From the NCBI RefSeq assembly GCF_029227915.1, contig NC_079882.1:9920001-9984000 (forward strand): a stretch of 64,000 nucleotides of DNA. Direction: 5' to 3'. The notes below the pieces were generated by a model that ran no database searches, was not told the DNA's origin, and worked only from the letters and a program-made list of their open reading frames with translations. Origin of the DNA: Hydractinia symbiolongicarpus (taxonomy: Eukaryota; Cnidaria; Hydrozoa; Anthoathecata; Hydractiniidae). Made by a program: the position numbers and the translations under genes. Below are positions 661-61,182 of the stretch, piece by piece (within the stretch, counting starts at the first letter, position 1; each line of letters begins with the position of its first letter).

Positions 661-3600
661 ATGGGTTTATCATCTGGCATTGTTTTATTTATGGGTTATA
701 TTTTTTTCGTTCTAGTAATTTGTTATTCGAATTGTTCGGTGAGTGTTTTAATGATCTATTTCATTTAGGCAAATTTAGTATTTTTTATAGTTTTGTTGTT
801 TCGTTCGTAAGACAAAGGGCATAATTTAGCGTTTAAATTTACCTTTTTACAACATCCACTCCGCTTCTTGTATCATCCTTATGGCTATACAAATCAATCT
901 TCCAAACAACTTAGCTACGTGCCACAATAGTACATTCTGCAATATTTCATAATCTTAAAAATGTAAACTTGGTTTTTAGAACTTTAAATTTACTACCTCG
1001 ACGCCGAAAAAGATTACCTACTATTTTGGCAGTCCTGAATATTTTACTATCCGGTGTAAAACAAGCTCCCCGGCAGAGATATCATGGCAGAAATGCTCTG
1101 CACTTTCTGAAAGTATTGTTTACTGCGATGAGAAATCTGCGAAGGATCACCACAATACACTCAATTGTGTGCCTGTGTTAGAAAACAACACTGAGCTAAG
1201 CAGTCAGGTAATTTCTGATAAAGAGTCCTTGTTACGTCTGAAAAAACAGCCGATATACATCGGTATTGGCTGCTTTCAATGCGTTGCGAAGTCAAGAAAC
1301 ACATCTCAAGTTATTAAACAATCAACAGAGTATTCTTACCAAGGTAATAGGACAAAAAGTAGAATATGAGAATATAAAAAAAGAGGTATTAACGTGCTTA
1401 AAATTTTTTTTTTTTCTTTAGATTATTGCCATACGCCTTCGAAAGCACAAGCAAAGGCGCATCCAGGTACTTGTTTTTTTCCTCCCAAACGCTTGTTCGG
1501 TAATACAAAAATTGGAAGCTTTCTTTTTCTTCTTTTTTTCAGAATTTAATCGTTTGCTCATTGGTACACGTGCCACGATAGGTAACGCAACAGTTGAATT
1601 TAATATATATTGTAAAGTCGCACCTGTTGAAAAAATCTTCATACGCCAATCAGTCCGTTCTGATGGAAGTATTGATGCTATAGCTACATGGCAACACAGC
1701 AACTTACTTGGAGGTAAGCAAAAATTATATAAATAAAATTATATATGTTTTAGAAAACTGAAATTGTCCGCCTTCATTAAATTTCATGAAGATGACTGTT
1801 AGAGTTTTTAAGACGTGTGTATGACTTTTAGCATCCTTGGTACGTGTGTATGGATTTTGCGTGAAGGTAACATCACTCTTAACATCACATGTTAGTGATT
1901 TTGGAAATTGCTTCTATGATCTAAACAATCAGGTATGTATGTCATGAGCCAGGAGTACTCCTTATGTGAAACCATAGTTCGGTATTAGACTTTAATCCAA
2001 TTATTGTTGGGATCTGAATGTCCCAGTCAAAGGCTGGAGAAGGGTGGGCTATAATGCTTTACTGCTCTAGCTTCCAAAGTACTGTGTTATTTTAAAAAAT
2101 TACTCGTCAGATATAACGTCGACCATAACAGAAAATGAAGCCTTGTTTTCATGTTAAGTCACGTGATGAATTGCTGACGTCAGCAAGAATACAAAAACTT
2201 GTAATATATTGATTTTTGATATATGCACTTTTTAGATTTTAATTAACAATACTCTAAAGTATATTATAAGATTCTTGCAGCTATAACAGGGCGCCAAATG
2301 ATTAAATTTCCGTTTCAAAATGGACACAAGGGAAGGATAACTGTCGAATTTTACGCCTGTATGACGTAATACTGTATACTTAGCTCTAGAAGAGAAACGC
2401 GCATGTTAACAATAATAATAATATATACTCTAATTGCCCTTAATTTGTCTAAATATATTTCACAATATCTAAAATTTAAGCAGGAGGATCCTATAAAATT
2501 TTTTCCAATACGGCATTAACTTTTAGTCTTGGACTAAGTTCTTTCCTGGTTAAAATCACATCAAATGCACATGTGTCCATATATCGTTGCATTAAAGATT
2601 GCAAATATGAAATCCATTTTGTTTTAAAATTTAATAACTGATCGCACGAAAGTAGATTATTTTTAGGTTCCAATGTTAAATTTGGTGATAATAGCGTAGA
2701 AATGTGCACATTATCCATTTCCATTGTAAAATCAATTCTGGATCTGAAGGTGTACAATTTCCCCAACCTCCACTAACTTAGTTTTGATTTACCTACAAAA
2801 AGGATAGGTTTGATTTCTTTATTGTTTTAACATAAAACCTTCGTTATCCTCCCGTTTTCAAAAATGTCAAAATAAACCTGCAATGGTGGAATTATGCTTT
2901 CCTGAATATAATCTTGTTATTGTTGCTGCTGCTATTTTTAGAAGAATATATACACCTACAATCTCTCACACGTAACGAATATTTACGCCGATATTGATTA
3001 TAAACTCGAGGTTGAGGCTCTACCCGTTTCCAGTCCTGTTCATCATTCCTTTACGATCAAGTCCGCAACCGGTTTGTGACATTATTTTTTTTTCATCTTT
3101 TACATAATGACTTTCAAGCTCGTTCCCAAGACCGCTAAGTAAAGAAGAGATGTCCTGGAGACGAAACAAGATGTCCAGGGGACGAAATGTGACAACTTCC
3201 GTATAACTTTATACTATTGATTTTAGAACTTTGCGAAAAGTATTTTGAAGAAAATGGCGTTATTCCCCTAAAATGTCGTAAGTTATTACATTATCTGGAT
3301 TTTCTTCCTTTGTTACGAGAACCACACTAAGAATGTGTGTGAAGTTCTAGAACTTCTGGTATACCAATATCACGGCTGTTTCAGAGCGGAAACTAAGACT
3401 GCGCATGCGTCAATAATTACGGCCACGTTGAGGCGCAAGATGGCGGGCGCAAATAAAAACAATCATGATAAATAAGTAACTAACTTTTTGAAATCGCTTT
3501 TGCATGATAGAATCTATTTCAGTGGATTTAATTTAGTTTTTTAAAGCATTTCAACACGCTGGAAGCTAAATCTTTCTTTTACCTTTGCGACAAGCATGCT

Positions 3601-6600
3601 GTTGGAGTAATACTGTGGCAGTTTTGAAGGCATACTTTTTTTTGTTAAAATTAACATGGCAACTTGTTCCAACTAATTTTTGGTTTTGTGGACGTTGCGA
3701 AGTTATGTGGCTGGTGTATTATATATTTTTGGAAAGCTGAAAGGCTCATCTACAAGGTAAGAAAAACGAAAAAACTGTATCAGTACTTCTGAAAGAATGC
3801 TAGAGCGCTGAATTCTGGCAATAAAAGTTAGTGTAAAACCTGAAAATTTTAACTCCCTCTTTGACATAATCTACTGTATGATTTATTGTAGGCATTAAAA
3901 CTGTTGTAGTTTACTAAGCTAATATTTCACAGAATAACAACACTAAACAACATTCTATATAAACAATTCTGTAACTCTAAATAAGGTTTCTGCGTCTCAT
4001 ACACTACTAACGTAAGCTCGACAAAAAGTCAAATAAAAATGAACTATGCATGTAGTAAGCTAATTAACTGTTCAATTCTTTTTCTTTCTAGACCAGCTGA
4101 TCCACCTTTGAAATAATGCAAAGACTAAAGGAGCTTGCAAAGTAATGCTAATATGCAGTTAAAGATATAACTAGCTATCTAAGCTGTAAGTCTAAAAGTT
4201 ATTCTTCACGTGCAATTTTTCTTTTTTTAATTTTTGGTTTTAATTGGCTCGATTCAGGATTTACATTAACAAAATGTTGCTTTAATGTATTTCGTAACCG
4301 CTCGACTGGGTTTTTGATGCAGCTGTACCTGCTCGACATCCTGTTGATTTCATGATGCAAGCTTTCTCCACCTTAAAAATGTTATAATTTGACATTTAAG
4401 CTAGCTAGCTACACATTTTCTGAAAAATAACACATTTTGGTAAAAAACACAAATTTTGGTGTTACCAGGTTACAAATTTAAGTGGCTGTTTACCTTGTTC
4501 GCCATAAAACCCAAATCCAACATTCCATTTTGCTATGAACTCAGTGACATGATCTTCAAGCATATGCAGTTTTGGTGAAATATTAACTTTTGGCCAGTTA
4601 GTTCGCAGATGCATCATGAATTTATTAATTGAAATTTCTAGAATTATGTACTATATGTATATTATTCTTTCTTTTTGTTTTGTTTTTGGCACATGAAATT
4701 TTAAAAAAAACTTATTTATTATTAAAAAAAGGAACAAGTTTCTCACCTAAAGCCAGTATTTCCTCACATGACAGATATTTTGCCGAATTGTAAATGTTAT
4801 GAACTTCTGCAAAGTAAGTAAATAACATGTCGTACTTATCCATTTCTAAATTCACACTGTGAATAAGCTGGTCATCATGCTTTTGTGCTGCAACAATCTC
4901 TTTAATGCTGGATGTTAAATTTTGGATGTTTTCTTTCTATAAGAGCAAGATTGTTTTTTTAATTTTCTTTAAATATGTTATTTTTAAATTGCTACATTAT
5001 TGTTAGTATTAACAAACCTTTAGCAATTTATGTACATGGTTGCCGATAAAACTTTGGCCATGGTAGGCCTGACGTTCAACACCCATTTTTTGCAGCGTTT
5101 TATCTATTGAAGAAGCACAAGGACCAACACCTAAAATAAGATGAACAAACTATTAAACATAGCTTTAGATTGGAGAGAATATAAGGCTTGCATCATAAGA
5201 TCAGAATGAAAATTATAATTTTGGAAAGTTTTTTTTCGGGAATTAAATTTCTTGGAATTTCCAGACAAAAAAACATTTGCGAATATCACAAAAAATTACT
5301 TAGGTAATAAAAATGATCATACCCACTAAAATTCTTTTGTTGTTTCCCAAGGTTGAGATTTCTAATTCTAATTCTGTGATTTTCTTCTCAGTTTTTATTA
5401 TACTTTTCTCGTACGTCAGTATATTTCGTTGTAAGCCACCAGATATTACAAGCCAGTTTAACTGATCTTGCTGGTTTGCTAATTTGGCTTTTTCATCTTC
5501 CAGCTTTTGCTGCAAGTCATTTGTTTCTTTAAGGACTTCGATGTAGTCACCATAATCTGAATCCAGTTCATTGTCTTCTGTTGCCAACAGCAGAGCTATT
5601 TTTACATCATAGTCTTGGCAAGAAGACTCAAACATTTTAAACATCTTTTGATATACACCCAAGGAAATATGAAGACCAGGAATACAGACCTAAAATTAGG
5701 TGTTTATATAGATTTTATTTTGGGATTATTAAATCAACTTGCAGTGGAAAAGCATAAAAATATGATGTATACTTGATCAATAGGTATGTCAAAAAATATG
5801 TTGTCAATGACATTATAAAATTCTTTCGCATTTTTAGGGCTCCCACCACTTTCACGGAAATCTGCTAAATTTTCTTCAAGTGTCGCCAGTGACCTTTTCT
5901 TAAATTTCTTGCGAGTAAACACTGGGATGTTCATTAGTTTTGAGGTAATGTTGCAAAACAAACAGCTGTGACGCCCTAAACACAAATGTTAAAGTATACA
6001 TATTTTATTAGAAACTTTTAAAAATAAACCATTTTTAACTATGCATTTCCCATATCTGCGTAGTAAAAACCCATTGTTAAACTACAGGAACTTTATGAAG
6101 TTGCAAAAAAAGTTCTGTAAAAATTAATTAATTTTGATTATCAACTAGCAACTTGCCCCAGATCTTAAGTAATTAATATTTACCATTTGCACCAGTTATA
6201 CCATACATTGCACACAGAAATTCGTAGTCGCCATACATAAATACACGGAATATCGACTCTTTATATTTGACTTGTTGCAGCATTTTTATTTGTGGTCGAA
6301 ACCGTTCAAGGCAGACTCTTAAGTTTGTTCTTGTGTCTTTCCCTAATTTAAAAAAAAAATATAAAAAATGTTTTGATTTCTACTTTAGATCACTTAGATC
6401 ATTTCTACTTTAGATCACAATTAGACATCACATGCATAGAATTTTGGAAATTCCAGTTTTAATTTTTTTTTTTTCATATTTGTAATATATTGCATTAATG
6501 TTTGTTACCTTCAAAAATGCTAAACATTATTGTGTTTTCCTTCTTGTTTGGGTTTAGAACATTGCCTATTTGATATGCCATTTTAAAACTATTTCCTCCA

Positions 6601-9600
6601 TGGTCTCCACCAATTTTAACATGGATCTCATTGTCAGGAATGAAACTATGTTTTACAAGTAAATTGTGACATTCTAGCTTTTTGAGTTGATACAGAATGT
6701 GGCCAACTACATTATACAGATACCCCCAGGGCCTAGGTATAACGGATACCCTGTTTCCAACTGATAATTTGGTGAGAGGAGCCAGCTCAACTCTCAGTCC
6801 TTGGCCTACCCATTCAGCAGCGACACTTCTTGCTTTTTTTTCTGATTCAATTTTTATGTTGAATGTTTTCAACCAACGTGATATTTCACGTAGTTGATTC
6901 CATGGCATGTTTAAATTTGATTTCATTGCTGTGATGTGATTGGCTGGAATAATGACTTCTGTACCCAAATTTTTAATGATAGTATTTCTGTCACTTTCTT
7001 CCATAGACTTTAGCAGTGCTGTGGTCTGTTTTGTGACAGATTGGGTTTCTTCACCAGACATCAGATGGATTAACTCCTTGGCTGTATTTGCTCTTTTCCG
7101 CACATTCCTTTCACATGTTTCATCAGAAGACTTGCGAGGAATTCTAATGGGTGTTATTGTCAATGGCTAAAATATGGAACATATGTTATTAATTTGTTTT
7201 ATGTAAAATGTAATATTACTATTAAAATTATCATATTGTTACAGACAATTATGTGTACATTATTTTTAATATAACATAGCATAGTTTTGTATTTTTGTAT
7301 AAAGTAGTTATACACATTTTTTATATAAGATCACTTAACGATGTAGACGCCTTAGCATTTAGGGTGGGCACATCAAAATTTTAGTAAATCTCCTAATATA
7401 TAGAATGGTTTTTATTGACCCCCAAAACTTCCTATATTCTGTGACCCCTCTAGCCACTTACTTATATTTATTATTATTTTTAATTATTTACTCTGAACAT
7501 TTTAAAATTTGTCTTGTTCTTATTATGGCTTGTTTTTTGTATAAAAAATGTGTATAAGAAACATTTCACTGGAATTGTAAAAAAATGATAACCTAGGTAT
7601 GCACATATATAGACATATACAAAAGCAACTTATTTTCAGTTTTGATTTCAGCCTTAAAATTGCTAAGATCAAAATTTTTTGCTTTATCAGCCGTTTGAAA
7701 ATCAGTTGCTTGTTAAAAAAAGTCAATGTCAAATCACTTTTACTGAGTCCACTCCATACATAAGTAATCTTACTTGTGAACTTCCACTGGGCAATTGGAC
7801 AGTTTTATTCGGCAAGTTTGACTGCTGCATTTTTATTCCAACCACATGAGCAATGCATTCTTCTACCTTTTTCGGTACAGGCTTGGAAGGGCTCAACTGC
7901 ATCATCTCTAGTGTTGTAAATGACAATGCTGGAGAGCATGTGTGCGATTGTGCAGACAGCAGTTTAAATGAACAACCACATGTTCCCTTGACAACTCGTG
8001 TGTTTAAAATCCTGGAAATGCACAAACCAGGCGAGACATCCCCGGGTGTTGTTGGGATGCTGCAGGTGGGACATCTATTTGAATTTTCCAACCAATTTGT
8101 TAAACACAAGGCACAAAACACGTGGTTACATTGGTTTATCATTAATGGCCTTTTTAAAATATTGCTACACAAAGCACAAATCAGATGTTCCCAGTTGCCT
8201 TCACTGATATTTATGTCTGAGAGAACGTTTCCACTATAGTCAAAAAGTTCAGAGGTTTTTCTGTAAATTTTATTAAGTTCTAGGGGTGTCCAAGTTTTTT
8301 CTGCGGAATCCACAGCTTTGTGTGTTGGGTTACCACCGCCCCTTCTTTTCATAGGTTTGCCACCTCTCTTTCTTTGTGCACTTAATATGCATGTTTTGCA
8401 CTCGGTGTCTTTATGTGTATACCATTTAACAGGCACAATAGCGGTAGCTGAGTCACGTTTTAGGACATTACTTATTGTAGCAAAGCACGAGTGACAGAAT
8501 TTTTTTGGGTGAATGCCTGCCCGATCAGAATAAAAATCAGCTCTGAAAATACTGTCCAAGTTCTTTATGTGCTCTTGGACAATATGTGATCGTCCAGGCA
8601 GAGTGTTTCCACATATTCGACACAGCTTGTTCAACCGAGCTAGGTGTAAATCCCCAGTAGCCATCTTGAACTTTAACAAAAATTTTGAAAAAAAAGTACC
8701 TAATGTTTGATACAATATCAATTCGTAATGTACTGATACACCTACAGTTCTTTTTTTATTCGTATCTCGTAACTATCTTGGAATGATTTTTATAAAAATT
8801 ATCTGTGGGATAACTTCGTATCTGAAAATATTTTGCTTTAAGTTGGCATGGTGTCCACAGTCTTCAAAATGGAGGTTGAAAGTTTTTGTTTTGTTTTAGC
8901 TAGGCAACAAGCGAATAGCTTTGTATTTGAATTAATCTTATTGGTATAGGACTATATTTTATTTAAACCACTTAGTTTCCAGTCCTTAAGTTGGTTTATG
9001 TGATTAAAATGCCTATTAAACCTGGTGCTAGCTACCCTAAAATTTGTTTACTTTTAAGCGCAACTCGCCCCAGTCCTTATTTTAAATTTTTTTTTGACAT
9101 GCGCAGTCTGAGTTTCCGAAATCTCGCTAGCTGAAACAGCCGTGATATATGTTGCACTCAACAATAAACGTCGCAATCTTACCAATCAATGTCGCAACAG
9201 TGGAAATGTAATTCTTTACGATAAAAGTCGTAGAAAATGTTTACAACATTTAACAGTAAACAAACTGAGAAAAAAAGGAAAGCATAGCTATTTGTGTGCA
9301 TGCCAGATTACTAGAAAACACTTTTCTGAAAAGATTTTCTTTTTGGTTAATTGAATTGACTTAACTTTTCCTGACTTTTTCCAGTGTCATTCAGTTTGGT
9401 CGTACGTTTTTGTACCATGATATGTCTGTTGTTACTCATAATAAATAATATATGTATCCCAAGTATGTTTTATGACATTTAAAGCTGGCTATAGTTTTCG
9501 CCCGTCGCAGCTAAGCTACCATTTTGCGTGACAGACAGGCGGACGGACGGACGTATACGGGCATTATAATATAGATAATAAATAATATGTCTGCAGAAGC

Positions 9601-14156: not shown

Positions 14157-14689
14157 ATTAAATCTCATTCTCACCATTCACATTGTTTATAATGATGTGA
14201 CATCTACATTTCAAAAATTTTACTTCGTCTATCCCAAGTACTATCTACGTCTCCAGGATCTCTTAATCCCTGAGCCCTTATTTGGAGCAATAAAAAGAAG
14301 ACAAAATTCCTTGGGATCAAAATAAAAATACCGCTAACAAGTTGCTAGTGAAACGTGAAACAAAACATTTTTTTAATACCTTTGCACTACATAATTGCCT
14401 ACTAATAGGTTTTTGACTTCACCATTGTGTGCAAACTTTTGGGTCAGCCAGTACTTAGATGTTGAGGACAGCAGTAAGAATTATAAACATTTATAGAAAG
14501 TTGTGTATTTATTTATAACTGCATTTTCATGTTATTAACCGTTTTTTAATTATCTATTTTTAACCAAAAATACTTAGTTCACCACATTTTGTATATAACA
14601 TTTTTTTAACAGTAAAATTGTTAGTTGCTTTTGTGATCGTAATTAAAATGCTACTAATTTGTGCCGCCAATAACCGAAATATCGTCCCG

Positions 14690-14808
14690 AATTTATTCAT
14701 TGATCCATTCATTCATCTATTCATTCATTCATCAATTCATCAATTCTCTCATTTGTCCATTCGTTCATTCGTCCTTTCTTTTATTTCTCCATTCATCCAT
14801 CCATCCAT
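14690..14808. repeat. Degenerate ATTC/ATCC tetranucleotide tract
   Basis: Imperfect tandem repeats of attc, atcc and ttcg units directly upstream of the GGTC array. They look like older or diverged phases of the same tetranucleotide locus. Confidence 0.75.
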
Positions 14809-14813
14809 CAGTT

Positions 14814-14985
14814 GGTCGGTCGGTCGGTCGGTCGGTCGGTCGGTCGGTCGGTCGGTCGGTCGGTCGGTCGGTCGGTCGGTCGGTCGGTCGGTCGGTCGGT
14901 CGGTCGGTCGGTCGGTCGGTCGGTCGGTAGGTCGGTCGGTCGGTCGGTCGGTCGGTCGGTCGGTCGGTCGGTCGGTCGGTCGGTC
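14814..14985. repeat. (GGTC)43 microsatellite
   Basis: 172 bases of the tetramer ggtc, about 43 units, with one substitution (ggta near 14926-14929). The array reads as Ser-Val-Gly-Arg repeats in all forward frames. Those open frames are artefacts of the repeat, not genes. Confidence 0.95.
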
Positions 14986-15337
14986 ATTATTGTTGCTTTC
15001 TTACCATTTTCAAAGCCTCCGTTTTTGTTTGCATCATATTTTCTTTACAGCATTTTTTTACTACAAGACATAGAAACCAGGTCGCTTTTTATGTAATTAA
15101 TACAACTACCTAATTCCAATTAACCTTAGCACGAGCTTGAGATAGATTAATGAATCAGCATTTTTGAGCAATTTACACTTCCGTTAATAAAAAATTTAAA
15201 CAATTAAAAAAGTTGCAACATTAAAGATGGCACGATGAAATGAGTTTTTAAGCTTATTGCGTTCTATTTTACCATAACCTCGCGTCAAAAAACATCAACT
15301 AAATGAAGTAATTACGTTTATTGTATTAATAAGTCAT

Positions 15338-25815: not shown

Positions 25816-28800
25816 TTACTTAATAGCTGATAATTTTAATATTGGACTTAATAAACCATGTGAGTCATGTAGCAGCGACACACAGTTCGAAACTTCCAGG
25901 TAAATATCTGTTATTATACGGGAAGCACTTTCTTTGTTATTTTCAGCTAAATGGTTAGCGTAACTGTTGCCCAAAGATGTGACTTCTATTTGGTAGAGTT
26001 GGGTGATATTTTTTAATGTTGATGCTCTCTCTTCCGCTAATTTTTTCGCCTCCATGTCCGTCATAAGGAGCATGTCTGCAACCTTTCTGTAATATTCGAT
26101 ACATCTCGATGTAAATTCAGCTAACGTCATCACAGCATTTTCATAACAATCATGAACATTAATAGTTTCTGAAAAGTTTGTTTTTTCTTGAAGTTTTGAC
26201 CAAGTGTTTAACAGTTTTGAACATGTTACTTTTAATTGCAGTTTCTTTGACTGGAGATAAAGTTCCTTTTTAAAATTTACATCTTTTGATTCGTCAAGTT
26301 CAACATCAAGTTCCATCTTTTCTTTTATGGCAGTCAATATTTCGATGCTTTCATCTTTCGCAGCATCAGATTGGGCATTTAAAATTCTCTCCAGTTTCAT
26401 ATCACATTCCTTAGATAACATTTCCAATGCCTCAGAATGTGCAACTCCTTGTACTTTTTCAAACATGTCATTAAAATTTGTTGGGTTATCTCCCCTTTTC
26501 ATAGAACTTTTGCAATCCACTTGTTCAGATTTATTTTTAGCTTCTTGTAGCACAGATGATAACGTTGATTTCTTTCCAAGCAACTGGTCACGTTTGCTGC
26601 GTAGACCTGGATCTCCTTCAGACAAAATGTTTACAGTTTTTTTGCCAAGAAATTCTAATGCATCGATGCTACCAGAGACAAGATCTTGGCCAGTGGATTG
26701 AACAAGATTTGATAATGTTGATACTGGGACAAAACTGGAGAACCAAGATGATGCACCTATAAGACAGAGAAGGCATATCTTGAAGTAAAGGTATATGAGG
26801 ATAACACTAAAATTTAGAAACATGTTGGTACATATACATAATTTGATATGAATGAAATGTGGGTAACATGTTCTGCAGATAATTGTTTGTGAAAAATGAC
26901 GTAAAAATGTTATCAAATATTTTTTTCGCAGAAAAGCCTTTTATCAACAAAACAATTACAGCACTTTTAATAATCCTTTGTTATGATTTTTTGTGACAGT
27001 GCTTTAATTTTTCTTTGTGTGATATTTTCACTGGTAAAAAATTCATGAATTATGGACTTTTGTGTTGTTTTTTTGCAGGAGACATGTATTTTATTTTTAA
27101 TTTTTTTTAACTCAATTTCAAATACTTGGCTACAATCTGTCAAACAGTATAAAGAATAACATCCGTGATAACTAGCACCACTAACATAGAACAGAACAGA
27201 AAATTTCATTGACCTGCAGCCTGGTTTCCAGCAGAACTATCCGAAACATTGTCAAGTTTGTCAGCCTGTTTCTCACCCTCCTTGCTTTGACTTTCCACCT
27301 CATCTTTTCTTAAAGCTTGTGCAACTTCCTTGGGATCAGGTATGCCTAATTGGTGTTCCACAGTTTCCAGTAGGGATGAAACTTTGTTTGCAGTTTGGGA
27401 TATAAAATCATCAGCCCATGAGTCCCATCCCCAGTCTTCTTGACCTGTGGTGTTGTTGCCACTGGAGGAAATCTGTGGTTGATTGTTAACACTCTGATTG
27501 CCATTTGATTCATTTTCTGTGACGTCTTCAACAACGGAGTCATCGGTTGTTTTCACAACTTTTTCAGCATTAGGTGTTTCCGTAACCCTTCTAACTTTGA
27601 GGGATTCTTCAACTTCTTTAGTGCTAGATATATCCATAATCTTTTCAGGATTTGGTGTTTCTACATTTTTTTTAGTGTCAGAAGCTTTCAAAGCCTTTTC
27701 GACAATAGGTGTTGCTGCAACCTTTTCAGTGCTAGATGGTTCAATAGGTTTCTCCATTTCTGAAGCTTCAATTGCTTTCTCGACTTTAATGACAAATGAG
27801 CTCTCTGCAGGACTATAAAAATTAAGAAAAAAAATATACAGGCAGAATTTTCTTTTTGCACTACAACAGGCTACTGATCACCAGTTTAGCCCATAAAAGG
27901 AATATGGTTATTACTGGAGTTTAGGTTACAAACGATAGTAGCAATAATTAGACTTGTTTGGTCACTTTTTATGAGTTTTAATTAAGAACAGAGCAGTAGT
28001 GCTCTTTCTCTTAAAATTCTGACAAAAGTGGTCTGCACAGAATGAAAAGTTGAACTTTACCACTATAAGCAAACCCACCATTCAATCAAAGTACATATAG
28101 CATCCACTTGATGTGAACATAAAGCAAGAATTTTTTTTTGGATTTTTAATTTAAAACATTTAATAAAAACTTGAAAAGTTTTATAAAGAATACACCAAAA
28201 AGAAGACAATTTTTTACATGGTTTTGCTAAAACTTTTTGTGATTCGCAACTTTATTTTCAGCATATTGAAAATAAAGTTGAAAATCATGCAGCCTCATGT
28301 TTCATAGACTTTTTTCAGGTTTTCGTTATTATTGTTATTTCCTTATCAGAAGTCTTATTTTATACTTTTTGTTTTTTTATTTCTGCGAAAAATTTAAACG
28401 TTTTAAAAGTCTGTAAACATCGAAAAAGTTAATTCTACACCTTCATTTCAAAAGTTGCTTTAAATGCTACAAATTATTTTTTACCAGTAAAAATTGAAAA
28501 GTGACAAATTGAGCAAAAGGCAGGGTGGTTTATTGTTACTATAACAGTTATAACAATGCCGTTCCACTATGGGCATTCTTAAACTGCAAAACCAGGACCC
28601 ATACCAGACAGAAGTGGCTTAAAATCGGCCTAATAGTTTTATGAAGCTTTCCTTTCTAAGTTTTTCGACTTACCTTTCATTTGCATCACCGGTGTTTAAT
28701 TCAGGTGTAATTTTTAATTCTCCGTCATTGAAATCTTTGTTGTCTTTATTAATGACATCACCAGATTTAACCTCACTGATATCACTTTCATGGTTATTAT

Positions 28801-33569: not shown

Positions 33570-34814
33570 ATGGCGTCTTGGCACGTGCCTGTTCATGATT
33601 CAGCATCAGCTGGTCTGGAAGAAGATCCATTTGATGAAAACCTTGAACTGACATTTCCACCAATGCGCTATTCGCCTATGTTTTATAATTCCCAACCACC
33701 TTTACCCTCCAAAGGTGGACAACGTTTGCGAAGAGAAAGCTCAAGAGAACGAGATCGGTTGTATCGTGAGCTTGTTGGCCATGAACCATATAAGCCACCT
33801 TCAAAAGGTGAATTGGCTGATCAGGGGGAGAAGTTTTGTGTTCGACTCGATGTTAAGCACTATAGACCCGATGAAATCACTGTTAAAGTTGATGGTAAGT
33901 TTCTTGGTTCTGTGCTTGCATTGAAAAATGCTTCTCTGTATTTTTTTTTTTGTGAAAAAAATATTTTTCGCAAAGTAACCAATATTTCGCGAGGATTGAA
34001 TTTCGTGAATCTCGCGGAAGTGAAATTTTTTTAACATTTTTTCTTTTAACTTTTATACTGTTTAATTATGTTTTACCTATAGTATTAGTTAAATTTAAAG
34101 GGAAAAATTGTTTTTTATAAAAAAGGAGAAAAAATTAAAATTTCGCAAGGATTAATTTTCGCAAATAGCGAGTTACTTAATAATTTTTGCAAAACTAGTT
34201 TTCGCAAAATTGTTCAATAGTTGTGAAATTTGCGAAAATTAATTCCCGTAGAGTAAAACGCGCTCAATTCCTTGGCATTATCAGGGGTTCTAGGTAACAA
34301 ACTTGATAATTTTTTTATTTTAGGTCAAACGATGACAATCACTGGCAAGCATCGAAACGAAATTGAAAATGGCTACGAGGCTTGTGAATTTCAACGTAAA
34401 TACACCATACCCGAACATATCGATACTCACACTCTCACATCCAACATATCACAAGATGGAATTCTTACTATTGAAGCTGCGAAGAAGATCTCTCTCAAAG
34501 AAGGTGAAACGGAAGACTCTGCGGAAAAGAAGAATTACCACTTATCTTTAGATGTGTCTGGTTATGCTCCAGATGAAATAAGCATTCGTGTTAATGGCAG
34601 AGATTTGATTATTCGGGGTGAAGCTAAAGATGAGCATAATAGCGATCATGGCAAAAGCATCCATCATCGCCATTTCACTTGGCATTATAACCTACCCAGT
34701 GATATAAATGTAGAAGCACTGTCTTCTAGATATACCAAAGATTCCAAGTTAGCTATAGAAGCACCAAGAGGACAGCCTTTGAAGACAAGAACATTGGAAA
34801 TCATGAAGGAATAG
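33570..34814 (+). CDS. Small heat shock protein with two alpha-crystallin domains
   Basis: ATP-independent holdase chaperone, cytosolic. Two exons, 33570-33894 and 34324-34814, join in frame to 271 residues. The first alpha-crystallin domain spans about 88-170 (FCVRLDVKHYRPDEITVKVDG across the intron, then MTITGKH, CEFQRKYTIPEHID, GILTIEAA). The second is about 188-262 (YHLSLDVSGYAPDEISIRVN, DLIIRGEA, SIHHRHFTWHYNLPSDI, KLAIEAP). The usual sHSP has one such domain in 150-220 residues, so this is a tandem-domain form, as known in some invertebrates. The start is the first ATG before the conserved N-terminal region. AATAAA at 34966-34971 is a plausible polyadenylation signal. Confidence 0.9.
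33950..34262. repeat. MITE-like repeat in the sHSP intron
   Basis: The intron is filled with alternating 'tttcgcgaggattgaatttcg', 'tttcgcaaggattaattttcgcaaat' and inverted 'tttgcgaaaattaattcccg' segments. The same core recurs at 19960-19985 and 20335-20360. The opposing orientation of the first and last segments suggests a palindromic non-autonomous element. Confidence 0.5.
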
Positions 34815-38078: not shown

Positions 38079-40201
38079 TAAACAAATTTTATACGTATTG
38101 ACTGATGCTCCACCATTTTTCTAATACCATGTCGAAACGCCTTTGCTGTGTTTAAATCTTTTCGAAATATAATAATAAAGCATTTCCATCCATATAGTGA
38201 AATATAACCAATGAAATTTAATCCTATAACTGTACTCATAAGAATAATGTCTTTTTTGATGCCGTTTGTTTGACTGTAATATATCATAGCTCCTGACGCT
38301 AACAGCAAGCCCGATACAAACGATGAAAAAGTGATAAAAATTGTTTCTCGAAAATTACTTGGTAATTTTCTCGCCCTGAATGCTTGCACAGTATTGCATA
38401 CAAGTAGAGTGAATATGTAACCGAGTTGTATTTGGATGTGCGGATTTGTGTTGCAACGAACCATACTTTCGTTGTCCGTTATGGTATCTATTAGAGTTCT
38501 TGGTGATGTGATTTGAAAGGAAACAATTAAAATCAAATCGTCGATAAAAAGCATAATGACAAGTAAAAATATCTCAGTTGCTTTTGTTATTATAACTTCT
38601 TGTTTTCTCATTTTTCTTTTTACTTGAAATACTAATAGCAGTCTTTGTGATTTGGATAATGTTATTGTTGTTGTTGCTGTTAGACATACTCCAATGACGA
38701 TTGGTCGAAATGTGCAGGTTGTAGTGTTCGGTTTCGCCATAAATAGCAATGGTAAACATATCAGCATTACGGAATGCATTGACAGCTGAAGAGTGGACAT
38801 AATGCGTCCTGAAGATAAAATCACAGGCGTGTTGCCATACCTTTGAAACAAATATATTGTCGTTAAGGTAAGGCAGAGCGAAAATGCACAAAAGAAAATG
38901 ATGATCATGCTTGAAGTGTCTTGAAATTTTATGTAGCTTTCCACGTTTGGGTTATAACAGTATGTCCTATCTTCACTACTTTCTTCCAAGAATGGGCAAG
39001 GTTCACAACTGTGGTTGCCAAAATGATTCTTCACATAACCACTTGGACATTTTTTGCAATGCCACCCAATGTAAGTTTTATTGTGACTTAATTCATATTC
39101 TTCATACACCGATTCTTCGCCTGCTTCACACGCACCCATACCACAAACAGCTTGGTGTTGACTAATTAAATTTGTGAAACCGTTATACATTTCTGTATTG
39201 TTTAACAAAAGAGTTTTCAAATTCGGAATTGAAATATTCGTATCGCTGTGAAAATGCGCTAAAGCGTGGTATATTTCATGTTCACCGTACACTATTGTCA
39301 TTTGGGTTACATCAGAACAGATTGATTGTGCTGTAAAATTATTTTCAGCAACAAAGGATTGCTTAGCTAGGACACATGCGTTTTCTTCCTCTGCTAGTCT
39401 ATCTCGAGTGTGTAATATATGAGCGTCCCGATCGCTGGAATGAAAAAAATGCATTCCTGTATCAGCGTGTTTAAACTCGTATAAATTTTCTACAAATACA
39501 TTAAACGTATCATTTTTTAGGATGCTCTTCATGATTGCGTCCTTGTCAGTGATGTTAACAAAGTTTTTCGTCACACATATTTGTTTTGTTTCTGTAAAGG
39601 CTTCAGACAAGCCGTAATCTTCCGCACAATCATATTCATTACAAAATATATAGAATACTGTATTAGTGATTGAGTGTTGTAATAAGGAATCTTTGACACT
39701 CTCTGTGTGTAGAATCTGATCATATTGATAGCTGAATATTGTATTTTGAAGTTCCACTAAAGCATTAGGAAACATGTTTTTGTTCGTTAATGCAACGTAT
39801 CGAATATCAGAAGTTGATAATATTGAAGCAGCAATTCTTGTCATATCAAAAGACATGTAGGAGATAATGGCAATTGGTTTCTTAACATTCATATTGAGAT
39901 ATGGTAAGAGGTTTTCTATCAAAACTTTCGGATTGTCACAAACATCAACGGTCACATAAGTTGTACTTCTGTTGCCATATAAACTCTCCAAATATTTTGA
40001 CATTTGTTGATCAGTGATAATTGTGGAAAGATTGTATTTTAAATTTCCATTTTCAACTGATGTTAAGGAATATAATCCCAGAAAAAAATCCTCCGTATTT
40101 GAGATTTGTTTTGATCTTTGGTTGCATCTACCATTTACCATAAATAATTGGTAACAAATGAGCATAAATAAGTGTAGACACTTCATCCTCAGATCATTCA
40201 T
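38078..40201 (-). CDS. Intronless class C (metabotropic-glutamate-like) GPCR, copy A
   Basis: Seven-transmembrane receptor of family C, single exon, 707 residues at the longest. Start choice: MNDLRMKCLH or the second Met at residue 6, which gives a cleaner signal peptide (to about 24). The ectodomain (about 25-350) looks like a reduced Venus-flytrap lobe (DVCDNPKVLIENLLPYL, KPIAIISYMSFDMTRIAAS). A cysteine-rich linker follows at 353-416 (CGMGACEAG, WHCKKCPSGY, CEPCP). Helices start near 431. Family signatures include TPVILSSGR, LSKSQRLLLVFQ and FRARKLPSNFRETIFITFSSF, close to the mGluR FxARKLPxNFNEAKFITFS block. The ligand cannot be told; amino-acid or odorant sensing is a guess. A paralogue on the same strand lies 11 kb to the right. 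Confidence 0.86.
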   Translation of the reverse strand: MNDLRMKCLHLFMLICYQLFMVNGRCNQRSKQISNTEDFFLGLYSLTSVENGNLKYNLSTIITDQQMSKYLESLYGNRSTTYVTVDVCDNPKVLIENLLPYLNMNVKKPIAIISYMSFDMTRIAASILSTSDIRYVALTNKNMFPNALVELQNTIFSYQYDQILHTESVKDSLLQHSITNTVFYIFCNEYDCAEDYGLSEAFTETKQICVTKNFVNITDKDAIMKSILKNDTFNVFVENLYEFKHADTGMHFFHSSDRDAHILHTRDRLAEEENACVLAKQSFVAENNFTAQSICSDVTQMTIVYGEHEIYHALAHFHSDTNISIPNLKTLLLNNTEMYNGFTNLISQHQAVCGMGACEAGEESVYEEYELSHNKTYIGWHCKKCPSGYVKNHFGNHSCEPCPFLEESSEDRTYCYNPNVESYIKFQDTSSMIIIFFCAFSLCLTLTTIYLFQRYGNTPVILSSGRIMSTLQLSMHSVMLICLPLLFMAKPNTTTCTFRPIVIGVCLTATTTITLSKSQRLLLVFQVKRKMRKQEVIITKATEIFLLVIMLFIDDLILIVSFQITSPRTLIDTITDNESMVRCNTNPHIQIQLGYIFTLLVCNTVQAFRARKLPSNFRETIFITFSSFVSGLLLASGAMIYYSQTNGIKKDIILMSTVIGLNFIGYISLYGWKCFIIIFRKDLNTAKAFRHGIRKMVEHQSIRIKFV

Positions 40202-42242
40202 TTGAACGTGCTTTCATATTGTTAAAACCATACCGTGCCGATATTTCAATACGGAGATGAAAGAACTAATTACTTTAAAATTTGTTTACATTTTGTCATT
40301 AACAAATAAAACATGAACGTAATTGACATGACGTTACAGATAGTCATTATTTATTGTCCTTTTATTTTTCCTAATTACCTGTGACCCCTACGTTCAAGTA
40401 AAAATGAAGAACTCAACGCTAAATGCTCAAATGTATTGTTTTGGCTTTGTTTTAATGATCATTATGATTTGATGTTAAAAAATATTATATAAATAAGGTC
40501 ATATATATTTAATAGTTTTTTTCCATCGTCAACACTCTTTTATTAGAACAATCTTATAAGAACAATCAGGTTGAGAATGACTGAAAGAAAATAAGAACAA
40601 TGAAAAGGCTAAACTTTTACTGAAATTCAATTTTTTTTCCTGAAAAAAAGTCATGAAATAAGGGGAAAACATCTTTCGAGGCAGACATTTTCCCAGAATC
40701 ATTTGTTTCGATTTTGTGAGACTTGTACCTGTATTTTACATTGCAACTATATGTAATATACTGTTAAATAATTTTTTAAATATGCTCAAAATATAAGAAG
40801 AAACAATTTTAGGCTGACGAATGTGAGAAAAATAAGAACACCTAGAGGTACTTACTGAATGACCAAATTGAGTAGAAGCACGTAAGCTTTTCACCCTCGC
40901 AATGCAATTACAATGAAGGAGGGAAATTACCATAAAAAAATTTGGTTTCATCAAAATTATGTCCTATTAACAGATTATTCATTATAATTGCTGCAGGTAA
41001 CAAAAAAAATTTGTTCCCATGTTTTTCAAAACAAAGCGTTTTTTAAAGACGTCAAATTCTAAATGCTACAATATCGATATTGCCAAGTTGGAACAACTTT
41101 TCTGTGACTGCTAGAAGTCTAACTCAAAAAATGCTGAACAATTTTTGATTCTCTTGCTTTATAAGCATCTTTCTACCTTTATTTTTTTCTTTATCTCCTT
41201 GAAAGGGGAACTGAGTACGACGTTGCTGATACATTTGATTCGTGTAAGGAAAAGAATCTAATGATTTTAACAGTGTTACTATAGTAACGATTGATATGAA
41301 TGAACTGTTTGGATAAACAGAATTCTTGTCAAATTTTAGGCATTCCTGTTGTCAGAAACATATACAGCTTTTCTTTTGGAGTCCTTACATACCATTTGGG
41401 ATATAACTTGTTACTATTCTTTAAGAGGTTTTGGGTTAAACATAAAATTAGCAGCTAGTGACCGTGCTATTATACATTTTGTGTAATTCATAATTCATTA
41501 AGATTCATTAGACGTTATCTCGGTCTATTTTGAGTACTGTCATATGGCAAGAACTTACATATAGTTTGGGAGAAATATAAAATACTTTATAACCTAATTA
41601 ATAAGGTTTATCGTGTTTTCACTGATTTAGCATATTTGATACTTCCGTTAACAAAAGAGCCTCGTACTGAAAATTTATTGCTATTTTAAGCTAAAACCGC
41701 AGAAGATTATGCCGCAATCGTTGTGGCTAGCTTTGAATAACATGATCTGTCGTAATTAATGTCGCTAAGGTAGTTGGTTTATAGGAAATTGTTATAAAGT
41801 TTACTTCTTGCCATGAACAATCAAGAACTTCAGGGAGTTATGTTGGGTTCATAGATCTTAGTTGAATTTAGGGTCAACTACCATCTATATAAAACAAAAG
41901 TGTATAACTGTAACAAAGTCTGGTTTAATATTACTGCAAAATTTCCATAACCACGAAATCTTTTATTCTTATGTGAAACGTTTCTATAAACCTACTACAA
42001 CACTCTAACAGCTTGAGAAGTCACGCATCGGCTTAGTCAATAACAATTACATAATTTCCTCTGTCAACACTATTAAGTCAGGATTATTTGACAAGAATTA
42101 ATTAATGGAGGGAGTTGGATCCTCGCACCCACGATTACAACCTGACAGGAGTCTTTCCTGTATCTGGTAGGCGGTAAAAACATTACAACGAGGCTGTGTG
42201 AACATGTTGAAATATTGGGTGAATTTGCAGGACGAAGAATAT
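40202..42242. other. Intergenic, no gene recognised
   Basis: AT-rich, with only short unsupported open frames. It presumably includes the 5' flank of receptor copy A. Confidence 0.4.
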
Positions 42243-51147: not shown

Positions 51148-53262
51148 TCACGATAGTGAAAGATTTTGTCTTTCTTTTGACAGCTTTCTGCTGATACCTT
51201 CTCGAAATGCCACTTCTGTGTTTGCTTCTGGCTTAAACAGGATAAGAAATACCTTACATCCATACAACGAAAAAAAGCTTGCTGCATTAATAGTCACAAC
51301 CGTGTAAACGAGAACCAAAGTTTTTCCCCCGTTACTCATTTGACTGTAGTAAATAAAACTTGTCGATGCTAGTATTAGAGTTGATATGAAAGATGAGAAT
51401 GTTATGAATACTGTCTCTCTGTAGTTTTCTGGTAGTCTTCTCGCTCTAAATGCTTGTACTGTATTGCATACAAGTAGGATGAATATGTAACCCAGTTGGA
51501 TTTGAATGTGTGGGTTTGTATTGCAGTAGATATTTCTTGAAATGCTGTCGTGGTCCAAATCCATCTTCTGTGTTGGCCATATTACTTTAAATGACGTAAG
51601 CAATAGAAAATCATCAACAAGTAAAACAACTATTAAGAAAATGATATCAGTAGCCCTTGTAACAAAAATTTCTGTCTTCCCCATTGTTTGTCTTCTTTGG
51701 AATATAAATAATAATTTTTGGGTTCTGCTCATCGTGATGGAAATTTGTATTGTGAAAAATACTCCAATGATGATTGGTTGAAATATGCAAGATGTGGTGG
51801 TCGGTCGACCAATGAAAATCAGTGGTATGCATAAATTTATTGCAGATATGACTACCAACTGTAAAAACGAAATATTTCTCCCAGACGACACCACAATAGG
51901 TGTGTGCCGATTTCTATACAATATTGCTATTGTTATGCTGTTTAAAAAAAGCATAATGACAGATACTGTCACTATAAGCTGAGATTCTGTATCTTTCATA
52001 CTTAGAAACTTATCCTCATATGGATCAAAGCACATGGTTCTTCCTCTATTACTTTGCCAAAACGATGGACATGGATGACAAACTCCTTCCGTGTCCGTGT
52101 CTTTAAATGACGAAGCATTGCATTTATCGCAGTACCAACCAGCTCTTCTCATCCAGGTGTAAGATGAAGAGACTTCCCCATAATTCGCAACCATACCTAA
52201 ACCACATGATGGCATAATGCAGGATTGGTAATTTGTTAAGTGTTGTGTTGTGTTTAAATGATCTTTCAGTGAAAAAAAAATGTACCCGAAATCTAAAGAC
52301 TTTCTGAACCCATCAAATGTTAAACCCGTTTCAATATCTGTAACATAGGTGTCTATTAAACGTATAAGGCTTTGTCTCCCTGAAGTTGACGATACAGTAA
52401 CGTGAGAGCAATTTATTTTGTGTTTCCAATCTACAACAAACGAGCTTTCGTAATAATCACAAGGAACTTCGATTTCAAGATTATCTTTCTCCATTTGGGC
52501 ATTGTAAATCATTCCAAATCGATAATCAGTTTTGGAATTGAACAAATATAGGAAATCAGAGTTTACTATAAGTATTGACAATACATTTTCTTGTTGTGTT
52601 TCCAAATAAAATGATGATTTATTGAATATATTTTCGTTTGCCAGATCTACAAAATATGTGTTGACACACATTCTTCGCATCTTTGCAAAATTCTCTATAC
52701 CACCATCATATGCACACAAACTTCCATTACACAGCACATAAAAATCAACAGCCGTTACTTTTGCATCAATCATACTTTTTACCATCGTCTCTGCATAATT
52801 TGTTTCATACAAGTCAAAGCTAAAGAAATTTCTTTTATTTTCCAATAAAGCATTTGGAAACATAGACTGGTTTGTGAATGCAAAGAAGGGAATATCAGAA
52901 GTGGATAACATTGAAGCAGCAATTCTTGTCATATCAAAAGACATGTAGGAGATGATGGCAAGTGGCTTGTTTACATTCATATTTAGATATGGTAAAAGAT
53001 TTTCTATTAAAACTTTTGGATTATCACAGACATCTATCGTTATAGCGTTATAGTTATATAAATATCCATTTGACAGGTCCAAATCCACATCAAGAGCATT
53101 TAAATTGTAACTATGTTCACCAAAGTTCGAGAAGGTTAAAGAGAACAAGGAAATAACAAGGTTATCTTCACTATGCTCCATTACCGATTTCTGACCACAT
53201 TTGCCTTCAGTTGTGTGAAATACCAATTGAAATTGCAATAAAAAAGGTAGGAGCTTGTACAT
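51148..53262 (-). CDS. Intronless class C (metabotropic-glutamate-like) GPCR, copy B
   Basis: Single-exon family C receptor, 704 residues. The signal peptide is at the first Met (MYKLLPFLLQFQLVFHTTEG). The ectodomain carries DVCDNPKVLIENLLPYLNMN and IISYMSFDMTRIAAS, identical or nearly so in copy A. The cysteine-rich linker contains IMPSCGLGM, WYCDKCNASSF and CHPCP. Seven hydrophobic helices follow from about residue 430, with TPIVVSSGR, MSRTQKLLFIFQ, NPHIQIQLGYIF and FRARRLPENYRETVFITFSSF. Tandem position, shared intronless structure and shared strand with copy A indicate a local duplication. The ligand is unknown. Confidence 0.86.
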   Translation of the reverse strand: MYKLLPFLLQFQLVFHTTEGKCGQKSVMEHSEDNLVISLFSLTFSNFGEHSYNLNALDVDLDLSNGYLYNYNAITIDVCDNPKVLIENLLPYLNMNVNKPLAIISYMSFDMTRIAASMLSTSDIPFFAFTNQSMFPNALLENKRNFFSFDLYETNYAETMVKSMIDAKVTAVDFYVLCNGSLCAYDGGIENFAKMRRMCVNTYFVDLANENIFNKSSFYLETQQENVLSILIVNSDFLYLFNSKTDYRFGMIYNAQMEKDNLEIEVPCDYYESSFVVDWKHKINCSHVTVSSTSGRQSLIRLIDTYVTDIETGLTFDGFRKSLDFGYIFFSLKDHLNTTQHLTNYQSCIMPSCGLGMVANYGEVSSSYTWMRRAGWYCDKCNASSFKDTDTEGVCHPCPSFWQSNRGRTMCFDPYEDKFLSMKDTESQLIVTVSVIMLFLNSITIAILYRNRHTPIVVSSGRNISFLQLVVISAINLCIPLIFIGRPTTTSCIFQPIIIGVFFTIQISITMSRTQKLLFIFQRRQTMGKTEIFVTRATDIIFLIVVLLVDDFLLLTSFKVIWPTQKMDLDHDSISRNIYCNTNPHIQIQLGYIFILLVCNTVQAFRARRLPENYRETVFITFSSFISTLILASTSFIYYSQMSNGGKTLVLVYTVVTINAASFFSLYGCKVFLILFKPEANTEVAFREGISRKLSKERQNLSLS

Positions 53263-55594
53263 TGTTGAAAGACAGAAACCTAAAATTAAATTACGATATC
53301 AGAAAATAGTTGTAAATTTACTAGTAACCTTATAGATAGGTACAAACAAGATAATCCAGCAATAAGCTAGAAGAAATTGTTTTTTTTTTATTTGGGGTGG
53401 TGGTGCTATTTTAAGGCATGCAATACAAGAAATCGAAGAGGATTCTAAAAAAAACTTCTCTACCTGTTATAGTGTCAATCTGAAGTGATTTGTTGATGTT
53501 TTGTCATAATAAATCTTGAGAATATGAATACTTAATTATAAACGCAACTTCACCTTATCGAATTTTGTCGACAAGCGATCGTCAGACAATCACTTACAAT
53601 GTGATTACGAAATACACTAAAAGTAGTGTCATAACCTTCTAATTGTTTCATTGTATGTATAATTAAAATCGACGTCTTTATAACCACAGGGCGGATTCTT
53701 TTTATTACGTTCGATACATGTAGTTTAGTATGGAATGTCTCTTTGTTAAATTTTTAATAATGAAATGAAGGAAGTTTCCAAATAGGAAATTAGAGGTCAT
53801 AACCACATAAGAAGACAGAAAAAAAACACACGCACTTCTTAAGGGGTGTTGATGAGAGTCATTCTGGTCTGTATAGCGAGCTGTCAGTATTTCTGCGAAA
53901 AGGAGTCAGCCCGGTAAGAAAGACAGCCCTCTGGTAACTCGGCCTCATATAATCAGTCCTTAATTAACTAAAAAAAACGTGTTTATATGAGAAACAAGCC
54001 ATATCTCAATTGAATTTGTCGTGATCCCGGCAAGAAGGGATAAATTTAACCTATGTAAACTCACTCTAGCAAGCCAGCTCAACCCGAGAGTTTACGCTCA
54101 CGCAATCAAATTTGCTTGTGATGAAAATTTTTTTTTGTTATGCATTGTTTAATGATTTCATAGTTTGCCCGCTTAACCGAGGTTTTTCGCATATACCTTT
54201 GTTAAAAGAAAGTGGGCAAAAGAGAAGTAGGCAAGAAGAAAAAAAAGACGGCTAGAAAAAAAAAAAATAATAATATATAAATAATAAAATATTTAATTTT
54301 CGTCACTTTTTGTCGACTAATTTCTAGATCGTAAATGACCACAAAAGTTTGAATTTTTAAGCTGTTTTTGTTTCGATAACAACATACGATGGCTTTGAGG
54401 GATACTTAAATTGTTATTTCTGAAAGAAGATGAGCGCAGAGAGAAAGGGGTTGGCAAAAAGTATTAGTCATTCATCCAGTCCTGGCTCAGCCTGTTCTAA
54501 CAACTTCCGAATTTTTGTCAATTTTACTAGTAAAAACGAAATCAAAAGTAGACAGACATTAACTTTTTGACCTGAAGACTAAAAGCACTCAAAATATGAT
54601 TACTTTGGCACGCAATCAATGAGCAAATAACGATTGCGCGCCATATATTTTTTAGAAATGGAATAGAAAATAAGCAAACAGGTGATCGTATGGTCAGGTG
54701 TAACGAGAAGCATATAGACCTGTGACAAACTGATTTCCCGGTGGAAGTTCTTACATCCCTCCTTGTGATTTACTTACAACCAGCTTCAACTCAATTGTTT
54801 GTATAATGCATACGATATGCAGTCGTTTGTGTTCTCTCTAATAAGCCACTTTTATGATCCTTTTAACCTCGTACCTAGGGATTGTTAGTTTTTTTTCATC
54901 TGTACATCCGAAGTTTAAAAAAATCTAACAACCTCTGGGGACGAGGTTGGGCTTGTATAAAAAAAATTAATCGATACAATAGAAACCCGTCTATGATATC
55001 AATCCTATTTTCATGTTGAACGCTAAGCAGAAAGGATCGATTCACAGAATAGCTAGTGGCATGACTTTAAAGAAGTTTACAGATTTCCGCACGGAGAGCG
55101 CACACTCTGCCACAAGGGGTGGCTTTGGTGAGTGTGGCCACAAAATTTTACGTCAGCGGACTTTTTTTCACTAATAAGGCGTGATTTCCATTGGAACGCT
55201 TCTCACGGCAGGTACTACAAAACTTGTAACGACTTTAGCAAGGACTCTTACGAAAACAAGTGTGAAGTCATATCTTTTGGCTATAACTTCCTAACCGAAA
55301 TAACGCAAAAAGAAAACAAAATAGTCTGGTAAAAAATTATTTCAGAAAAAATAATATTCCATTTTTAGAGTGGCCACTTATTTTTTTAAAAAATTCAAGA
55401 ACATCGGCTCATCTTTTGAACATCGCTCATGAAATTTAATTATAGATTTTCTCTCCACTGAAGTTGTTCACAAGTAACCACTCAAGTCTTATTCCATCGT
55501 AACAAAAAAGAGGTTAAAAACCACAGTGTTTATGTGTTAGATAAAAAAAATTAATTCTACCATTTTTAAATTGCTACCTTCCTACGAAACATGT
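53263..55594. other. Intergenic, no gene recognised
   Basis: No supported exon. It contains one inverted-repeat member of the CCTGGGGACGAGG family at 54864-54947 and an A/T homopolymer-rich tract near 54236-54295. Confidence 0.45.
54864..54947. repeat. MITE-like inverted repeat (CCTGGGGACGAGG family)
   Basis: A left arm at 54864-54887 and a right arm at 54924-54947 are inverted copies with a few mismatches, enclosing 36 bp. The right arm carries CTCTGGGGACGAGGTT. Confidence 0.65.

Positions 55595-61182
<5,588 letters not shown>

Follow-up and report, generated by a model that had tools for sequence, protein, structure and literature searches.

A one-gene transposon of the Chapaev kind with RAG1-type N-terminal modules and unequal two-part ends in the hydroid Hydractinia symbiolongicarpus

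Introduction

Accounts of how V(D)J recombination arose usually run through Transib and RAGL elements. Transposons of a further kind, the Chapaevs, reportedly include elements with Chapa and RING domains, which are credited to Kapitonov and Jurka (2007). In the published literature DUF1280 corresponds to the Chapaev transposases, and RAG1 and DUF1280 form one clade in the study concerned (PMC3985635). Two Chapaev subgroups carry a Chapa zinc domain and then a RING finger, as in RAG1, and Chapaev cores are just distantly related to the cores of other Transibs (PMC4411706). Here we analyse a stretch of 64,000 nucleotides from Hydractinia symbiolongicarpus (contig NC_079882.1, positions 9,920,001 to 9,984,000), referred to throughout as the window, in which a DNA transposon occupies positions 3367-9148: a nine-exon gene lies between 14-bp ends, and a 4-bp duplication, ATAT, flanks the whole. 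The element is complete and autonomous-looking. With confidence we assign it to the Chapaev superfamily, as one copy of a hydrozoan DNA transposon that is young, autonomous and of the cut-and-paste type. Its distinguishing point is that an intact, very young, one-gene RAG1-fold transposon is combined with unequal two-part ends.

Results

The two terminal repeats, CACGGCTGTTTCAG, are perfect over their 14 bp; exact matches in the 64-kb window are confined to the two element ends, and allowing 3 mismatches adds three more matches, which is chance level (2.8 expected). On its two sides the gene leaves just 828 and 480 bp of the element. We searched the genome (480.9 Mb in 76 contigs, the window lying on contig C8) with the left 100 bp of the element and found at least 37 places, all 37 of which were fetched with their flanks. 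Near-identical copies, over the full element or its surviving parts, account for 23 of the 37, and all 23 have exact 4-bp target-site duplications (TSDs), of many different sequences. Across the 28 copies with both ends found the 4-bp TSD is exact in 27, the exception being L037; L009 and L010 have the same flanks and thus represent one insertion. Substitutions from the column majority number 0-2 in 20 of the 23 near-identical copies and 11 in each of the other three (L021, L022, L032), where ten of the 11 fall within one 12-column stretch. The remaining 14 of the 37 places are relatives at about 87-92% identity (L033-L036) or about 67-83% in alignable stretches (L037-L042, L045), short matches only (L043, L044) and a copy with a truncated left end (L019); transposase matches within this remainder occur in L033, L034 and L036 only. 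The family is very young and has recently spread, and it is probably live at present.

All exon borders of the gene are GT/AG, and the joined frame is open across 965 codons. Openness of the frame alone is insufficient to fix the gene model, because enumerating nearby splice choices yields 32 open combinations; we prefer the 965-codon model because homologues align continuously over the junctions (7 homologues span them, and 5 of these reach the last two). A second reason is that 965 codons stay open in 19 of the 37 fetched copies, that of the window included. These 19, all of them near-identical copies, also keep every splice site, and their proteins differ from that of the window by 0-2 residues. 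Among the other four near-identical copies, L014 has an in-frame loss of 12 bp that leaves the frame open, and for L017, L024 and L031 the full gene was not obtained by mapping. The original prediction had described a complete transposon with matching inverted ends and an ATAT flank, its nine exons joining without a frame break, and had held that it may still be mobile, unless no other copy existed anywhere. The structure is borne out, the absence of other copies is excluded, and recent mobility is strongly indicated by the 23 near-identical copies and their exact TSDs.

We also observed that a 179-bp unit, which runs from late in exon 3 into the following intron, varies in number: one unit in 5 copies, including that of the window, two in 15 (the commonest state) and three in 2, the region being deleted in L017. 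From the position of the unit, the exon 3 splice donor is duplicated in the multi-unit copies (L009, L010, L013-L016, L021-L023, L025-L032).

The ends contain more than the 14-mers. A second block (CGGAAACTMAGACTGCGCATG), absent from the original prediction, is common to both ends with 20 of 21 bp alike, and lies inward of the 14-mers at unequal distances. Measured from the CAC to the start of GCGCATG, with up to 2 mismatches allowed in the motif, the spacing is 30 bp downstream of the gene in 37 of 37 fetched ends and 40 bp upstream of it in all 28 ends found. The CAC itself starts the left end in 36 of 37 copies, L038 starting with CAT. Counts made by hand from the sequence letters, for distances and TSDs alike, give 30/40 in family D (L049, TSD GGTA) and 30/41 in family C (L048, TSD CGCC; far motif ACGCATG), with the short end downstream of the gene in both. 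In family E the upstream end is 40, and the 3' end, which lies outside the fetched zone, was taken from a genome-wide pattern. The transposases of the compared families are clearly diverged, their tblastn segments being about 27-69% identical.

The genome-wide pattern (CACGG, 12-42 free bases, then TGCGCATG) matched 372 places (189 + 183), against 154 (17 + 137) for a reversed-pattern control, so that a single match is no proof of an end. Lengths and pairing were analysed for 100 of the 372 places, from contigs C1, C2 and part of C3, among which length 37 (n = 20) and lengths 47-48 (n = 32) stand out; a separate class of 15 places of length 35 is clustered at G000:C3 19.36-21.02 Mb. Facing ends at most 8 kb apart formed 17 pairs, and three of these, being a second reading of the same end (54 for 47), were dropped. 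All 14 remaining pairs are 37/47, that is 30/40, with no 37/37 and no 47/47 pair among the 100 listed places. Twelve of them could be assigned to families (three to A, three to D, six to E), the two without assignment being C2:22716574 and C3:14374556, and some overlap copies already counted (three of family A and one, L049). Fewer than 14 of the pairs are to be taken as independent, because three family E elements (C2:16042526, 16955798, 16976119) share one flank sequence and may stem from a single insertion by duplication. The ends are thus two-part and unequal, differ by about one helical turn (10-11 bp of DNA make one turn), and are kept so across families with clearly diverged transposases. 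No published description of unequal 30/40 two-part Chapaev ends was found in the literature searched, which excludes Repbase Reports, where Chapaev is said to have been first described.

What could such an offset mean? The main rival to a role in pairing is inheritance without function, in which an old 10-bp insertion in one end has been carried along as baggage, and we hold this to be a serious possibility that stops short of being probable. All the families compared belong to one genome and share common ancestry, and many transposons have unequal ends without any pairing rule. Family B moreover departs from the GCGCAT spacing. In this family (L046, G000:C11:23787738 and 14 more places; P0074 type, 55% identical in exon 2) a GGAAT block lies 17/27 bp in and GCGCAT stands at 32/36, for which reason it lends the offset weak support; both values come from the single copy L046, whose flanks TTTA/TTAA are not an exact TSD. 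When six further copies were tried, the 5' end was found in 5 (not L057) and the 3' end in none (L047, L052, L054, L056, L058, L060). This family is young as well, P0074 having 15 matches at 99% that cover residues 1-269; the copy that was read shows no RING.

Common ancestry in one genome and the departure of family B weigh against a pairing rule. Against simple inheritance, on the other hand, stands the way in which spacer sequence changes while spacer length stays: in L037 5 of the 12 bases of the long spacer differ from those of the window element, and the block next to it matches at all 21 bases (in the downstream block 1 of 21 bases differs), and 30/40 or 30/41 has been retained by families with clearly diverged transposases. 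It is conceivable, then, that the offset enforces short-long pairing. That a short end (30) must pair with a long end (40-41), as a "12/23-like" rule of their own for RAG1-fold Chapaev transposases, we put forward tentatively and regard as rather doubtful.

We turn to the kind of transposon that carries these ends. Every Chapaev hallmark listed in PMC4079192 is present in the window element: a 3- to 4-bp TSD, 5'-CAC...GTG-3' termini, DUF1280 (56.4 bits, for a curated cut-off of 25) and the C(2)C, LH and H(4)H motifs, here HSCLFC at 572-577, PGLHISLG at 641-648 and PKLHMLEDH at 882-890. Of the proposed catalytic residues, Asp 555 sits 19 residues ahead of the first Cys of the C(2)C pair, and Glu 907 follows the H(4)H pair. 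The zinc region precedes the RING, the order found in the Chapa+RING subgroup of Chapaev; the zinc region is classed by RAG1_imp_bd and by a family profile that matches the RAG1 N-terminal structure 21wb (E 8.4e-15), and not by a Chapa model. A profile search recovered 91 relatives among 7997 candidates scored, the named ones coming from Hydra, Hydractinia, Branchiostoma, Asterias and Haliotis, and several have RING and DUF1280 in Pfam lists. Relatives labelled in the eukprot style are presumably from the sponge Sycon. In a tree of 66 sequences, restricted to DUF1280 proteins and without support values, the window protein stands beside P0002-P0005, P0009-P0013 and P0056, and then the Hydra proteins. 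One stretch in viral contigs and 15 in prokaryotic contigs fitted one peptide pattern, none of them confirmed by tblastn, and plasmids gave no match to exon 2. The architecture of zinc region, RING and DUF1280 is known and widespread, since PMC4411706 prints the Chapa and RING arrangement and relatives occur in the animals named above. Judged by its sequence, the element is closest to Chapaev (DUF1280), a widespread animal superfamily, rather than to RAGL or Transib, and it adds a new member to a superfamily of an already published kind.

How far does the likeness to RAG1 go? In the PDB, the models made for two homologues hit nothing but RAG1, amphioxus RAGL and Transib at E<=0.001, with structural alignments at about 12-16% identity to RAG1, and "RAG1-like core" is correct as a description of the modelled fold. 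At the level of sequence the RAG1 catalytic core was matched neither in hmmscan (18 families at E<=1) nor among the 60 of 138 phmmer matches listed, and in the profile search the RAG1 match stops at residue 490, before the catalytic core. Nor was a RAG2L-like gene found: open reading frames (ORFs) of at least 50 aa outside the exons of the transposase gene reach 129 aa at most, nine of them were scanned with Pfam and showed neither kelch nor PHD, and no profile search for a multi-exon RAG2L in introns was made.

A RAGL/ProtoRAG-type transposon of the RAG1L lineage that has lost its RAG2L would account for the RAG1-type N-terminal zinc region, the RING, the RAG1-fold core of the homologue models and the CAC ends. 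We consider this very unlikely, because 27 of 28 copies carry 4-bp TSDs, against the 5 bp of the RAGL elements in PMC7204232, and because the core is DUF1280 with no RAG1 catalytic-core match. RAGL or Transib membership is out by TSD length, by core sequence and by the lack of any RAG2L-like gene found, and a Transib would in addition have a protein free of zinc region and RING. Least tenable of all is a domesticated host gene whose flanks merely resemble transposon ends, which the intact nine-exon gene might suggest and which is refuted by 19 intact copies over many contigs with exact TSDs and near-zero divergence.

On these points the original prediction needs some revision. Its combination of RAG1-type zinc/RING modules with a RAG1-like Asp-Asp-Glu core holds for the zinc region, the RING and, in homologue models, the fold, and fails for the core sequence; its single gene without a RAG2 partner agrees with what we find; and the single host gene that it gave as the alternative is ruled out by copy number. 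Its statement that most RAG1-related sequences of invertebrates are fragments is contradicted by PMC7204232, where numerous RAGL transposons of molluscs and of one nemertean are described as intact. It had also named the element a candidate living relative of the lineage that gave rise to V(D)J recombinase, and here we would keep a distant cousin and give up an ancestor, because the element is of Chapaev kind, its core matches by fold only and its TSD is 4 bp, not 5. The features of the element are collected in Table 1.

Table 1. Features of the transposon, in window positions
Feature	Position	Strand	Details
TSD ATAT, left copy	3367..3370	.	4 bp
Terminal inverted repeat CACGGCTGTTTCAG, gene-downstream end	3371..3384	+	14 bp; begins CAC
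Subterminal block CGGAAACTAAGACTGCGCATG	3387..3407	+	21 bp; 2 bp past the 14-mer, gene-downstream end
Transposase gene	4199..8664	-	nine exons, 965 codons + stop
Exons 1-9	8664-7774, 7166-6509, 6342-6184, 5975-5773, 5689-5323, 5130-5018, 4936-4747, 4637-4494, 4371-4199	-	
Zinc region, Chapa / RAG1 N-terminal type, aa 14-101	8362..8625	-	Pfam RAG1_imp_bd E 6.5e-6, best stretch aa 38-101
RING finger, aa 163-201	8062..8178	-	Pfam zf-C3HC4_2 E 1.9e-11
DUF1280 (Chapaev transposase), aa 373-540, exons 2-3	6272..6941	-	Pfam E 4.3e-15
Proposed catalytic Asp 485 (KIGGDHGG)	6603..6605	-	invariant column, 52-sequence alignment; putative role
Proposed catalytic Asp 555 (MYGDYEF)	6227..6229	-	>=90% conserved, 52-sequence alignment; putative role
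Proposed catalytic Glu 907 (GEQGGES), Glu 911 alternative	4498..4500	-	homologue alignment; putative role
Region of the 179-bp unit	6119..6301	.	end of exon 3 and part of following intron
Subterminal block CGGAAACTCAGACTGCGCATG	9098..9118	-	21 bp; 12 bp past the 14-mer, gene-upstream end
Terminal inverted repeat CACGGCTGTTTCAG, gene-upstream end	9131..9144	-	14 bp
TSD ATAT, right copy	9145..9148	.	4 bp

Elsewhere in the window, two ORFs that resemble each other, both without introns and 711 and 716 aa long (38081-40213 and 51151-53298, both on the minus strand), carry 7tm_3, the domain of family 3 G-protein-coupled receptors (E 9.2e-34 and 3.5e-33). An ORF at 34257-34811 (+) has an HSP20 domain in two stretches (E 4.2e-25; small heat shock protein), one at 59989-60627 (-) has both alanine dehydrogenase/PNT domains and probably belongs, as an exon, to a gene for NAD(P) transhydrogenase, one at 25819-26940 (-) has DUF719 (E 8.9e-26), and an open frame at 14564-15073 (+) holds a long SVGR simple repeat.

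Discussion

We propose that the spliced 965-aa transposase would place its RAG1-NBD-like domain on the subterminal block and its core on the CAC end, pair one short end with one long end, cut at the CAC by an Asp-Asp-Glu active site and join the excised element to target DNA with a 4-bp stagger. The RING is probably a ubiquitin ligase domain, predicted to target the transposase itself or host factors. Several points weigh against this picture. The catalytic Asp-Asp-Glu is assigned by motif, the fold comes from models of homologues and not of the window protein (P0002 is 45% identical to the window protein over 74% of its length), and mobility is deduced from the genome sequence. In addition residue 98 is R in the window copy and K in the other 18 intact copies, so the window copy may be impaired.

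If short ends must indeed pair with long ones, then unequal ends read by a RAG1-type transposase would either be older than RAG2 and than the parting of Transib and RAG, or have evolved on two separate occasions. A laboratory animal would in that case offer an element, with one gene and still moving, in which the rule could be dissected. If it is the one-turn offset that controls pairing, asymmetric signals could arise without RAG2 and outside the RAG/Transib lineage, and the age of the 12/23 rule would become an experimental question. The hydroid is kept as a laboratory animal, and its one-gene transposon, which is intact, multi-copy and probably active and has the N-terminal modules and the core fold of RAG1, may serve as a distant outgroup in which to study how ends are recognised, what the RING does and how far RAG2-like partners are needed.

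Among known systems the Chapa+RING Chapaevs are the most similar, sharing with the window element the DUF1280 core, the CAC/GTG termini, the 4-bp TSD, the C(2)C-LH-H(4)H motifs and the zinc region followed by RING, whereas the 30/40 two-part ends are not described for them in the literature searched. RAGL/ProtoRAG elements share the RAG1-type N-terminal region, the RAG1-fold core, the CAC ends and asymmetric two-part ends, but have a 5-bp TSD and a convergent RAG2L gene where the window element has 4 bp and one gene. PMC8289069 gives ProtoRAG end spacers of 27/31 bp, a difference of 4 in place of the 10-11 seen here, and states that asymmetric ProtoRAG end pairs work better and that most Transib ends are symmetric. 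Transib differs by its 5-bp TSD, mostly symmetric ends and core-domain-only protein (PMC8355894, PMC8289069, PMC4411706), and N-RAG-TP of Aplysia, likened here by its description in PMC8355894, has RAG1 N-terminal-like sequence on a transposon. Finally, vertebrate RAG1 with its 12/23 signals differs in having RAG2, of which no counterpart was found here, in its nonamer, which the block here does not resemble, and in the spacings themselves. It is alike in domain order, in fold, in the CAC end and in a second block set at two spacings about one turn apart: the 12- and 23-bp spacers differ by 11, and the end spacings of the window element and its relatives by 10 or 11.

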